A stretch of 64,000 nucleotides of DNA. Origin: Apostichopus japonicus. Taxonomy: Eukaryota; Echinodermata; Holothuroidea; Aspidochirotida; Stichopodidae. Below are positions 979 to 62,004 of this stretch, in pieces (the first letter of the stretch is position 1; the number at the start of each line of letters is the position of its first letter). Position numbers and translations under genes: made by a program. The notes beneath the pieces were generated by a model. The model was not told the origin of the DNA, did not search any database, and was given only the letters and a program-made list of their open reading frames with translations. The stretch is taken from the NCBI RefSeq assembly GCF_037975245.1, contig NC_092569.1, positions 17,125,501 to 17,189,500 on the forward strand, read 5' to 3'.

Positions 979-1059
979 CGTTTCTTCGGAAAACGTAAAA
1001 GCGATCAATGTTGTACACAAGAATGCAAATATTGCTCGAACAGCCACGGAAGGCTCCAT
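979..1059 (-). CDS. Gene 0, exon 1 only: signal peptide of a fibrinogen-related protein (partial, runs off left edge)
   Basis: This 27-codon exon starts [20 protein letters not shown] and ends at ACG followed by a GTGAGTT donor. The product begins with a hydrophobic secretion signal. The exon matches exon 1 of the four complete genes in length, splice phase 0 and sequence. An in-frame upstream ATG exists in this copy (near 1149), but a one-base length difference just upstream shifts that frame in genes 1 and 3, so the conserved MEPS start is preferred. Intron 1 fills positions 1-978; since intron 1 is about 3.3-3.5 kb in the other copies, exons 2-8 should lie beyond the left edge. Confidence 0.75.
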
Positions 1060-1251
1060 ATTTATGAATGTCTTGGTATAGTACGAATGACAATTCAAAT
1101 AAAATGTATCTCTAGAGGTAAGAAACATCCTCGATGTTCTTAAAATCAACGGATGTCCTGAAGTGTGTTCACAAAATGTAAGATGATTATATCTCGCAGC
1201 CAGTTTACATTGTTCTTCTTCGTTGTAAGATACCGTCTTTCAGTTTCAAAC

Positions 1252-1345
1252 AGATAAGGATTCAAAGGCACCCATATACTATGGAAACTTCCAGTCCATA
1301 AAGGAAGACCGTTCCATGTTACGTCACGTTGCGGAAATATTTACA
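1252..1345 (-). promoter_or_regulatory. Conserved upstream element of gene 0 (kappaB-like, CRE/C-EBP-like, GATA)
   Basis: GGAAACTTCC, a Rel/NF-kappaB-like site, lies at 1283-1292. TTACGTCACGTTGCGGAAAT begins at 1319 and combines a CRE/ATF-like core with a C/EBP-like core. A GATA motif, AGATAAG, lies at 1252-1258. The kappaB-like site is 224 bp upstream of the ATG at 1059, the same spacing as in all other copies. Factor assignment rests on motif resemblance only. Confidence 0.5.
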
Positions 1346-56900: not shown

Positions 56901-59900
56901 GACAACCAGATTGTCCGTTGGGATCGTCACATGTTGCTTTGCAACTGCAGGTTCCGTAGATCGTGTTCGTAGGACATGTAGGGATCACTGTACCTGCTAA
57001 ATGGGATTTAAACAAGAATGTTATGCAAATACTCCTGTCATAAACTTTCTAAATGTTACAGTAAAATAGAAGAATAAGAAAGATTTGCATTGAAAGATTA
57101 TGCAAATTATTGAAAGTTGTACATTTGTATCAAGATATTACTGCATTATTATTAATGTTTTGTTTTTACTTACGCGGATGAATTTCGTATGCGCCGATAT
57201 ATGTAGCCTTATATTGCCCCCATTCATCAGCGATACGAAAACCTCTGTATGTTGTAAAGAAAGAAACTCCATTAGATAATTCTATATCCACACGAAGCTC
57301 GTAGTCTGCTTGATTCGTCAAATATGATAACTTTCCATTGCCGAGCCAAAACTCAGTGGAGAGAAAACCAAATCCATCTTTATAATGTGACCAACTCCTA
57401 TTGAAATTCACAGCACCGCTATCGCGACGTTGTATGACCTGTAACAGAAGAGGAACAGATTGCGAATACTATCAACACTTAAATGCACACTCACGATTGT
57501 ACACAAATATGAGGAATGGACAATTTATTGTATCAATTGCTGAAACTATTCACTAAGGTCGTCTCCAAAAAAAGCTAGCTATTTTTTCCCAATTTATACG
57601 TTACTGGGTGGAGGATGTGACTTATTGATTAAAACTACACAAGTTAAAGTCATGATCCTACATACTAGCGAAAAACTTTACCACGTTTAAAATATGACAT
57701 AAACATTTCAATGTATAGACGTACCGTCCAGCCTCCTCCGCCAACGTCGTTGTTGCAGTACACCTCAAATGGTTCTTCAAATCCATCTGGCTTGATGATG
57801 TATACTCCGCTAGAGTTGGACGTAGAACACTGGCTTTGGACGTCTCGGCAGTCCTTTGGATATTCAGAACGTTGATAAAAGAAGTATTGAGCCACTGTAA
57901 CAAAGAGAGAAAAACATTTACAATTTTGAAAATATGCTTTGTGTTCAATTTGTCACGAAATCGTGTCACCGTATACTGATACTTTACATTTAAAGAAAAT
58001 CCTACCAAGAAATTGACAATTAACTGTGATTTTAGGAGACGATTAAAAAACGCAACCGGAAAAATAGAATTAAATATTTGTCTGTAGTAACATGAACTCC
58101 TTAACATCATATTTGATACATATATCATTTTCTGTGTTAGATTATTTTGCTTTCATTTTTTCTCACCCTTTCTCTCTTTTCCCCTCTCTCTTTTTTTATG
58201 TTCATTTCTTTTATTTTTTATGAAGGGAGGGGTGAGTGTGAGGTGGAGGTGGGTGCTGGCGAATGTATATATATTCTAAAACAATTTTCAAAACTAAGTA
58301 ACTTGTCTTGTTCTATAATATTATATGTAGTAATTTTTCTATTGTTTTAAGTTGTCGAAAGTAACAAACTAAATACTGTCTCACATACATAATGGCAATA
58401 AAATTGAAACAGAAATTCACCAAAAGTTATCTTGGGAATAACAAAACACATTTATATAATTTAATTGGGTTTTGAATATCTAGATGGAATGACAATATAC
58501 ATGGTAATATATCATGTAAATGAAATATCTTACTCTGCGTGCCATCTGCAGTTGAAGGTAAACTTCTCCGATGAATACTCTATTGATGAAAAGAAGAGTC
58601 ACAGAAAAGATATAAATATGTCATGTTTATTGATAGTAATGTTTAAAAAACTTTAAAATGCCACAAATTTCGGCAAACAATATTTTAAAAATAATAAATA
58701 ATTAAAAAGGTTGTTCACCGACATACTTGCTCACGTCATGTTACTTGACAACTTCATCCATTACAATTGTACAATTTTTAATTAAATTTTTTGAAATATG
58801 TTCCTTGAAATGTGTAACTGTTGAAATGAACAAAAAAACAATCAGAATTGACTGGAAATATTTCCCATATATCATATTTTGGGGAAGGAGAAGGTGGGTT
58901 GGGGAACTAAATATTGTATAGAATTTAAACCCAATCTATAAATAGTTATTTAACTTAATTCAGACGCAAAAAGTATTTTCAAAACTTGTTTGGATTTGTG
59001 TAGTATTTTTTTTCTTATTTGCACCAAAACTATTAGCAAAGGTATTGGCTTTACATTCAAGGAACGCAGATGAAAATAGAATATATTTTTCACAAAACTA
59101 TGTAAGCGATGAGAAATGAATGAAGATTAAAGAATTGAATTTTACTTTCTTACATTAACGGAAAATGTGAAGAAAAATATGTTTGTGAACATTAATTTTT
59201 ATTTAAACAGTCAACCCAGCATATCATTAAGTTCCATGTGAGATGCGCCTGTATTTTGTTTAGAGCGGTAGTAACTTCAGTGAATAAAGAAAACATGACA
59301 AATAATCGTTAAAGGTTCTATTTACCACAAAGCAATGTGGGCAACTTTGCAATATTTTAATACAGTATATTTTACAATAGAAATTGATGTTATCAAAATT
59401 GTATCGTTTCATGTGTTTCCATGAAACGAAATGAAGTAATAATTTTTGTGTTGATAAAGATCCTCAAAATTGACATAAAACAGCAAAAATTCTTATACCA
59501 TATACGCAGAGATCTTCCACGTTACTAAGACAGCGTTGTCGGGATGATAAATTAATAACGCTTGGAATTAACAACAGCCTAATTGTGAAAGAAGTAATGT
59601 TTTTGAAGACTAAGAAGTGACTTTGAGTTAAATGATAACTCGAGTCTATCATTTATAAGATACTTGCCAGATTTTTCTAGCTTAATAAAACATATCAATT
59701 GTTTCAATGAATAAAGTATACGACGTGCGTTAATGTGTAAAACAAACACAGCAAACATTTTATGTATTTTGGAAATGGAATTGAGTATATGAAAGGGAAT
59801 TAAGATTTATATAAACCGTATATTGTATTTTTTTTTTATTAAGACCTTTCTTACACCGTGAAAAGTACACTATTGATTTACATGGGAATACGGCACGGTA

Positions 59901-62004
59901 TGAAACGCACCAATTGCATGCGTTAGGCTTCCATGAGATATTGGCCGGAGAAATTAACAAAAAATATGCCTTAAATTTCAAATACAAAGTAAATGGCAAT
60001 ATTTGATAACGGTTTACAACCCGAATTAACGTTACATCACACAAACAATAAAACGAATTAATATGCAAGTTTTGTAAACTTCATAATGCGAAGTCGCCGA
60101 GATCGAACTATCTCTATAGTACAGTACCCATGCATATACTTTTCAAATTCCAAGAGCATCAACATATTGAACTTAAGGGTCTTAATGTCAAGTGAAAAAA
60201 TTACTTGTTTGATAGTTTAGAGCATAAACTTGATAATGTTGCATTAGTCTTCAAAATCATGGTAGTTTGAACTTCTAAGTACTTTTAAGTCAATGAGAAG
60301 GGCGAAGTTGAACGAGCAAAATGAACATATATACCTATATATTATTAGTTTAATGTTATAATAATGATAAAGTTTTGAAATGTGTAGCCATTGGAGTTTA
60401 CCCACGCAAGTATTGCATGGAAGTGAATTACGAATTAAGGCTGTATTTTGTTAATGTCATAGTGCGTAGTTGCAGAGAACTGGTTTTATACTATAGTACC
60501 CTTGCAAATAACTTTCAAATTCCAAGAGTATCACAATATCGTACCTAAGGATCTCATAATCAAGTTAAAAACTACTTGCTCGATAGTTTACTACATAAAC
60601 TCTATAGTTATGCATTAGTCTTCAAAGTCATGAAAACCCTTGAAATTTTACTCATGTAATTATTACATCATAGCTATTTGTTAAGATCAATTATGCGAAG
60701 TCAAAAATTAGCATTGGTGTCTAAGGTGACTTTTAAAGATTAACCAATGCCTACTTAGATGAACTCAAATAAAACTAAACGGAAATATATTAGACAATTA
60801 TAGAAGCAAGGTTCTAAAACATCTGCTCTAACTACATTAAAATTTGATATTCTAGACAGAATATAAGTCCGTCTCGTTAAATGAAGTTAATTACCAAACA
60901 AGGACAAAGAGAACGAACATTAATTACAAACGTTGATATGAAAATATTGAAAATAATTTTACAAGTATGTGTTTAACGCTCAACAATAATTTTCTTACAA
61001 CTAAATGACAACGGGAAGAATGAATTGATCTAGAATTTGTTAAACAAAGCTTCTCAATGATACAATATATTGTTAAAATACTTAACGTATACTATTGGAA
61101 GTCTAAAGGTTCTTTTTACGAGTAAGATAAACTTATACTGTACACTGGAATACTTTGAGCACTAATGTAGTCTAATCGTTTTGTCAAGAGGAAGTTATCC
61201 GTTTTTAGTTAGAAATTATATAGAGACTTGATAATAGTCAATGAAATTTAGTGAGATCTATGTTTAAAGTTTCTAAAATGATAAAGATAGTCTTAATGAA
61301 TTTAACGGTTCAACTGTCTTAAAATAACTTTTCCGAATGTTTTGTTTTATTCTGAAGATATTAACAGTTATGCACTAAATCATCCAGTAAAACAAACAAT
61401 TCTAGATTGGAAACTTTGGTATTATATGTCATTAATTAGCGACGAATGGGTAAATATATACACTTAGGGATACATAATCGGGAACCGTTGCTAATTGAAA
61501 ATATGAGAGGTTTCTTAGGGCAATGTAAAATTTGAAATGTAACTAAACATTTTTTTGTTGCAAACTTAATTTTCTATTACTTCCAGTGCAAATTTTACCC
61601 CCTTCCCCACGACCCCCACACCCTCCAAAAAAAAACGCACATTCATACATGCTGCTGTAGATAGGTTATTATTTTTGGAAAGAAGGAATTTAATGAAGAA
61701 GAATTATTATTAGCAAAATACTTTTTACTTTCAGTCGCTATATTCTAACTTTACAGGCCACTTAAAACAAGAATGTTGTATTAGAAATTGTCAAAAAGGT
61801 AATAAAGAAATTGAATTTTCTAAATATTTTGGGGGTAATTTCAACATCTAACAAGCAAGAACGAAAGATGAACGCAACGATTTATAAAGAACAAAAACGA
61901 AAACTGTAAAATGTTTAACTCACCGTTTCTTCCGAGGTCGTAAAGGCGATAGTTGTTGTGCACAAGAATGCAAATATTGATCGAACAGTCACGGAAGGCT
62001 CCAT
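53973..62004 (-). CDS. Gene 4: secreted half-FReD/TIL/EGF/FReD fibrinogen-related protein (8 exons)
   Basis: Exons in coding order: 61924-62004, 58534-58579, 57725-57894, 57174-57438, 56779-56993, 56315-56623, 55738-56002, 53973-54292, all with GT-AG borders. They total 1671 nt, or 556 residues. Residues 1-27 hold the signal peptide. About 43-187 are the first FReD N-terminal part ([33 protein letters not shown]). About 188-259 are TIL and 260-310 TILa/EGF ([23 protein letters not shown]). About 312-556 are the second FReD ([45 protein letters not shown]), ending MKIRPSS. The DND residues are where FReDs bind calcium. Oddities: exon 4 ends AYEIHPR where the others have GELESNA, so its border has diverged, and a six-Tyr run (TAT repeat, 54018-54035) lies near the C-terminus. 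Secretion and lectin-like recognition are inferred from the families. Confidence 0.87.
54635..54686. repeat. (TA)n microsatellite in intron 7 of gene 4
   Basis: TA array matching the one at 21102-21168 in gene 2. Confidence 0.9.
58580..61923 (-). other. Intron 1 of gene 4
   Basis: About 3.3 kb without coding signal. It is homologous to the other copies of intron 1 but diverged. A segment with CGAGA-ACT and TATAGTACAGTACC landmarks occurs near 60095-60130 and again near 60470-60505, an internal duplication. Confidence 0.65.

Follow-up and report, generated by a model that had tools for sequence, protein, structure and literature searches.

Large families of proteins with fibrinogen-related domains (FReDs) form recognition repertoires in several invertebrates. 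Systems described so far include, as given in the available portions of the reports, the fibrinogen-related proteins (FREPs) of gastropods, which are defined as an immunoglobulin superfamily part plus one FReD (PMC8878817), the expanded FREPs of the sea cucumber Apostichopus japonicus, with 21 tandem genes on one scaffold and a tandem cluster that is up-regulated during visceral regeneration (PMC5638244), and a FReD transcript of Holothuria glaberrima that is induced by lipopolysaccharide (PMC2702171). Here we describe a tandem array of FReD genes in a stretch of 64 kb (the window; GC content 0.29-0.37 across 4-kb steps) of the A. japonicus contig NC_092569.1. Judged from its sequence, the array is intact-looking and mosaic and has an unusual architecture among FReD proteins, with a partial FReD, TIL and TILa domains and a complete FReD in each predicted product. 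No description of a FReD-TIL protein or of this domain order was found in the literature searched, whose coverage was partial and which included no animal protein database.

We consider it about evenly balanced whether the array encodes a secreted FReD family, probably of recognition type, that was diversified by exchange between the tandem copies. An earlier interpretation of the same DNA (hereafter the sequence-only reading) had proposed a diversified secreted recognition set, and we infer the same; the proposal is indirectly supported by the mosaic exchange, by the variability of the pocket loop and by the promoter motif present in all five copies.

Gene models and domain architecture

Gene models were assembled from the conserved splice motifs of the genomic sequence, so that splicing is predicted throughout. 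Four models (genes A to D) of eight exons each (E1 to E8) were obtained on the minus strand, all open up to a single terminal stop and all with the exon start phases 0,0,1,0,1,0,0,1. A fifth signal-peptide exon lies near the left edge of the window.

14930-6673, minus strand: gene A, 553 aa; exons 14930-14850, 11349-11304, 10626-10457, 9834-9570, 9244-9030, 8898-8587, 8283-8013, 6974-6673
28471-20436, minus strand: gene B, 552 aa; exons 28471-28391, 25066-25021, 24486-24317, 24054-23799, 23560-23346, 23184-22882, 22539-22269, 20752-20436
48238-39639, minus strand: gene C, 551 aa; exons 48238-48161, 44874-44829, 44207-44038, 43694-43430, 42581-42367, 42208-41900, 41527-41263, 39946-39639
62004-53973, minus strand: gene D, 556 aa; exons 62004-61924, 58579-58534, 57894-57725, 57438-57174, 56993-56779, 56623-56315, 56002-55738, 54292-53973
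1059-979, minus strand: fifth signal-peptide exon (gene F) with a GTGAGT donor; the remainder of the gene would fall past the left window edge

No further exon copies were found when every exon peptide was searched against the window with tblastn (E<=1e-3). The splice models and this search bear out the fourfold recurrence of eight exons in one orientation, with an additional signal-peptide exon, that the sequence-only reading had reported; its equal intron phases were likewise recovered, with individual splice sites differing in A, B, and C. The exon-4 donor is GTAAGT in three of the four copies. At the corresponding place of gene B (23788-23799, minus strand) ATAAGC stands, i.e., AT for GT, and the model there uses a weaker GTAATG donor 9 nt upstream, which keeps the phase and shortens the exon by 3 residues. 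The exon-5 acceptor of gene A lies 3 nt upstream of its place in the other copies, in frame and with the exon length still 215, and the exon-7 donor, GTATGT in C, is the untypical GTTTGT in the other three genes.

The predicted domain order is signal peptide, short linker, the A and B subdomains of a FReD without its P subdomain (FReD1), TIL, TILa/EGF-like region, and a complete FReD (FReD2), with about 30 residues separating exon 1 from FReD1. The Pfam families Fibrinogen_C, TIL, TILa, and EGF_3 were all matched in the four proteins (E<=1), whereas VWD, C8, collagen, immunoglobulin, and FN3 domains were matched in none of them at that threshold. Scores were compared with the Pfam cut-offs for proteins A and D. 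Fibrinogen_C matched two stretches of each with E-values of 9.8e-80 (A) and 1.7e-80 (D), i.e., 268 and 270.5 bits against a cut-off of 22; TIL (residues 194-247; 4.7e-6 in A, 3.4e-7 in D) and TILa (residues 255-302; 4.3e-8 and 2.2e-10) were also above their cut-offs, and chance is excluded as a source of these FReD, TIL, and TILa sequence matches. The half-FReD/TIL/TILa/FReD order claimed earlier is thus supported by exon translation and Pfam in all four proteins. From the TILa-EGF unit named in the sequence-only reading, the TIL and TILa parts stood; the EGF-like part is weaker than was claimed, as EGF_3 (residues 285-315) reached 17.6 bits in A and 26.1 bits in D, under the cut-off of 28.5. 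The exons of gene D illustrate how the domains are distributed.

57174..57894, minus strand: E3-E4, partial FReD with A and B subdomains and no P subdomain (model, PDB search)
56779..56993, minus strand: E5, TIL domain (Pfam TIL 194-247)
56315..56623, minus strand: E6, TILa/EGF-like region (TILa 255-302; EGF_3 285-315 below cut-off), then the FReD2 A subdomain (Fibrinogen_C from 321)
55738..56002, minus strand: E7, FReD2 B subdomain (model, Pfam)
53973..54292, minus strand: E8, P subdomain, in which a segment of 29 residues rich in Cys, Tyr, and Ser separates WWH from CT..NLNG (model; alignment of the gene C counterpart)

When protein D was searched against the PDB, residues 55-180 matched fibrinogen gamma, 193-308 FCGBP, and 320-489 ficolins and angiopoietins. 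The top entry was FCGBP (8rde), matched via the TIL/TILa cassette, which agrees with the mucin- and FCGBP-like character ascribed to this cassette at the outset; its rank is the sum of several stretches, five of which pass the threshold, the best single one with 44.6 bits. In inhibitory TIL domains the loop between Cys5 and Cys6 is the reactive loop acting on serine proteases. The TIL present here has ten cysteines, and the residues between Cys5 and Cys6 are VSD (A), NSD (B), NSD (C), and HRD (D).

The first FReD is truly partial, as the sequence-only reading held, because the E8 exons of the four genes are the sole P-subdomain exons of the window (tblastn) and the introns 4 are just 180-848 nt long. 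It has three cysteines in all four proteins, and from this count one of them may be free for a disulfide bond elsewhere. FReD1 and FReD2 share 41-47% identity (82.8-106.3 bits in 16 pairings), and FReD1 of D, the only FReD1 compared in this way, scored 98.9 bits against ficolin-3 in the PDB. Because the mutual score about equals that against ficolin-3, the two FReDs of a protein are anciently diverged, and a recent internal duplication as the source of both was rejected.

Mosaic structure and proposed exchange between the tandem copies

Informative sites were counted by the pairing of genes that they favor, always in the order AB/CD : AC/BD : AD/BC. Along the genes they form a mosaic of three blocks, with counts of 15:367:13, then 116:6:7, then 47:185:42, and a three-segment model gained 219.2 in log-likelihood compared with at most 11.4 in 20 permutations, which were run on a coarser grid. 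On the 5' side the counts were 8:262:4 in intron 1, 0:4:1 in E3, 2:7:0 in E4, and 0:6:4 in E5; in the middle 11:0:1 in intron 5, 23:0:3 in E6, 38:5:3 in intron 6, and 38:0:0 in E7; and on the 3' side 35:70:31 in intron 7, 4:25:2 in E8, and 14:91:9 in the 3' flank. No informative sites occur in E1 or E2, and few in E3 and E5. The joints fall near E5/intron 5 and inside intron 7.

7955..9054, minus strand: middle block of gene A (pairing AB/CD), bounded by inferred joints within A 9054-9009 and 7957-7955 (the latter soft)

The second joint is soft because intron 7 aligns poorly across pairs. The pattern is independent of that intron, as is seen from E7 and E8 alone. The synonymous distance (dS) in E7 was 0.21 for AB and 0.39 for CD, compared with 1.4-2.0 in the other four pairs, and in E8 it was 0.21 for BD, compared with 0.69-2.13 in the others. 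The first block of the mosaic arises because A and C are close: positions 11887-17757 and 45207-51112, which cover the promoter and exon 1 of these genes as well as the greater part of intron 1, are 93.5% identical over 5.9 kb, a block that would derive from recent duplication or conversion. The last block arises because B and D are close (90.9% identity in E8). Either conversion or unequal crossing-over could have made the joints.

Long AT/TA arrays occur in intron 4 of A (9290-9488) and C (43033-43113) and in intron 7 of B (21103-21168) and D (54634-54686), near the joints. Their link to exchange is weak, because intron 3 of A and C has three further AT arrays, and another is found outside the genes.

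Pocket region and selection

For the pocket region, FIBCD1 was aligned to gene C, and the remaining copies were placed through the alignment of the four proteins; residue roles in the FIBCD1 acetyl pocket and calcium site were taken from the available part of one report (PMC3908420). Aspartates occupy the calcium-site places of FIBCD1 Asp393 and Asp395 in all four copies, and the place of Tyr431 falls in a region without confident alignment. Between the WW-aromatic motif and the pocket Cys the array proteins have 27 (A), 29 (B), 26 (C), and 29 (D) residues, rich in Cys, Tyr, and Ser, whereas the same loop has two residues in tenascin-R, ANGPTL2, and fibrinogen gamma. This segment is the most variable 30-column window of the protein alignment, with a mean pairwise difference of 0.434, a maximum that was reached by 12 of 1000 column permutations.

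The ratio of nonsynonymous to synonymous distances (dN/dS) was 0.25-0.33 overall in all six gene pairs, at an overall dS of 0.33-0.53, and the proteins are, by these estimates, under purifying selection. In the pocket-loop segment dN was 0.07-0.45, and dS was not computable in four of the six pairs; positive selection on this loop was considered and found unsupported, what is seen there being the excess of variability only.

Promoter motif and spacers

All five copies have a near-invariant block on the 5' side of the start codon. It includes the motif GGAAGTTTCC, which may resemble kappaB sites and which stands 222-235 nt ahead of the ATG.

1283..1292, minus strand: promoter motif GGAAGTTTCC of gene F; its counterparts in genes A to D stand at 15155, 28695, 48464, and 62226

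The window has five matches to GGAAGTTTCC (0.20 expected), one per first exon and none elsewhere; the five count as one event because the gene copies are homologous. Other matches to GGRRNNYYCC were five in the coding start and those at 18843 and 52372, two overlapping at each. At the latter places (18843-18853 and 52372-52382), in homologous spacers 3' of genes B and D, the palindromic GGGAATTTCCC occurs, presumably also kappaB-like.

Successive first exons are spaced 13.9, 13.5, 19.8, and 13.8 kb apart. The enlarged spacer between B and C (the 19.8-kb interval) holds broken reverse-transcriptase-like frames at 29057-30560 on the minus strand; three of the four open frames matched RVT_1, each singly below the Pfam cut-off, and we assume that they are of the LINE (long interspersed nuclear element) type. 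Rfam gave no matches in the window at the gathering cut-off.

Interpretation and alternative explanations

The E5-E7 exons make up a cassette with phase 1 at both ends, and these phases fit a symmetric module inserted into the intron between the B and P exons of a plain FReD gene. Starting from an ordinary gene for a secreted protein with one FReD, the intron ahead of the P exon would have taken up TIL, TILa/EGF, and the A and B subdomains of a FReD. The encoded protein would be soluble, depend on calcium, perhaps be linked by disulfides, and serve as a lectin or in adhesion; the complete FReD would act as its ligand-binding head, with a pocket rim rebuilt by the Cys-rich segment. The TIL/TILa unit would space or assemble the molecule, as it does in FCGBP and mucins, and the partial FReD would be a structural or oligomerizing module without a classical ligand site. 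Through exchange between the tandem copies, a given N-terminal part would come to be combined with other C-terminal head exons.

Several observations weigh against a diversified recognition family or the models behind it. At the place of FIBCD1 Tyr405 all four copies have His, and at that of His415, which was placed via the alignment with tenascin-R and fibrinogen gamma and not with FIBCD1 directly, all four have Thr after the pocket Cys; the residue there is His in tenascin-R and fibrinogen gamma and Ala in ANGPTL2, which is not known as an acetyl lectin. To judge from the alignments, such replacement could mean that the proteins are no lectins. Columns 163-200 (the end of E4 and the start of E5), which include the displaced splice sites of genes A and B, are nearly as variable (0.42) as the pocket loop, E5 takes no clear side in the mosaic, and none of the pair comparisons showed positive selection (dN/dS about 0.3). 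Finally, the lost exon-4 donor suggests that gene B may be spliced otherwise at exon 4 or may give a truncated product.

Part of this evidence fits a secreted structural, adhesive, or mucus/regeneration-matrix family, with FReD and TIL used for protein-protein assembly and the copies kept for dosage, an explanation that we regard as unlikely, though deserving serious attention. Purifying selection with no sign of diversifying selection, the two replaced acetyl-pocket residues, and a TIL/TILa unit as in FCGBP all speak for it; it accounts poorly for the fall of the most variable window on the ligand-pocket loop, for the re-pairing of deeply diverged E7 and E8 lineages between copies, and for GGAAGTTTCC in all five promoters, even if these are homologous copies whose kappaB likeness is our assumption. 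A further parallel, by description only, is the tandem FREP cluster that rises in visceral regeneration of the sea cucumber according to the accessible part of its report (PMC5638244).

We find it distinctly less probable that the exons belong to two adjacent genes or to alternative products, with E1-E4 and E5-E8 unjoined or E4 normally spliced to E8. With E4 joined to E8 (E5-E7 skipped) or E3 to E7 (E4-E6 skipped), the frame stays open for 287-294 aa in all four genes, the former join giving a frame with a single FReD, and the usual E4 donor is missing from gene B; from the phase symmetry of E5-E7, short isoforms are predicted as possible. Against two genes, the open frame that immediately precedes E5 contains no Met in any of the four copies, where a separate upstream exon is possible. 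The GTAAGT donor after E4 in three of the four copies, with in-phase acceptors ahead of E5, and the one-to-one recurrence of all eight exons in the four copies argue for the joined genes.

More speculatively, and in our view improbably, each gene may be a receptor switched by splicing, in which two A-B heads go with a single P subdomain. E1-E4-E8 would then give a plain single-FReD lectin, and inclusion of E5-E7 a TIL-spaced protein whose A-B units compete for or share the P subdomain, with the variable pocket loop stapled by disulfides; head exons shuffled against a common N-terminus would amount to germline combinatorial recognition. That the array is partly decayed or duplicated by assembly, with pseudogenes or haplotype duplicates among the copies, is highly improbable: the gene B donor, the A-C likeness of 93.5% over 5.9 kb, and the broken reverse-transcriptase-like frames at 29.1-30.6 kb would suit it, but none of the four frames is interrupted and dN/dS is about 0.3, the overall dS is large for haplotypes, and the high A-C identity drops off within the genes.

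Comparison with known systems

Peptide-pattern searches with two short peptides for each collection, a weak test, gave no relatives among 48 matching stretches of viral contigs and did not find the architecture in 60 stretches of bacterial and archaeal genomes, where one EGF-like match of 40 residues occurred in a metagenome-assembled genome. With ficolins, tachylectin-5A, and FIBCD1 the array proteins have in common a complete FReD and the calcium aspartates, and the top PDB matches of the second FReD were ficolin-1 and angiopoietin-1 (D) and FIBCD1 and angiopoietin-1 (C). Unlike these lectins, they have no collagen match and have the Tyr405 and His415 places replaced, and to the lectin-type FReD plan they add the segment of 26-29 residues, the partial FReD, and the TIL/TILa unit. 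With FCGBP, gel-forming mucins, and VWF they share TIL followed by TILa; in the array, however, this unit sits between FReDs and is accompanied by no VWD or C8 match. Tenascins carry FN3 repeats between their EGF repeats and the FReD, whereas the array proteins have no FN3 match.

The sea cucumber FREP cluster resembles the array in its tandemly duplicated FReD proteins, a likeness by description only, from the available part of the report (PMC5638244). If the array proteins are structural, they would document how exon modules of symmetric phase are shuffled in secreted proteins. Gastropod FREPs are, like the array, a multi-gene invertebrate FReD family, as described in the part of the report at hand (PMC8878817), but the array lacks an immunoglobulin match. 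Should the recognition reading be true, the array would show that diversity can arise otherwise than by the immunoglobulin-plus-FReD route of snails, namely by a TIL/TILa cassette, exchange of head exons, and a Cys-rich pocket segment, and it offers a concrete set of genes for testing that route.

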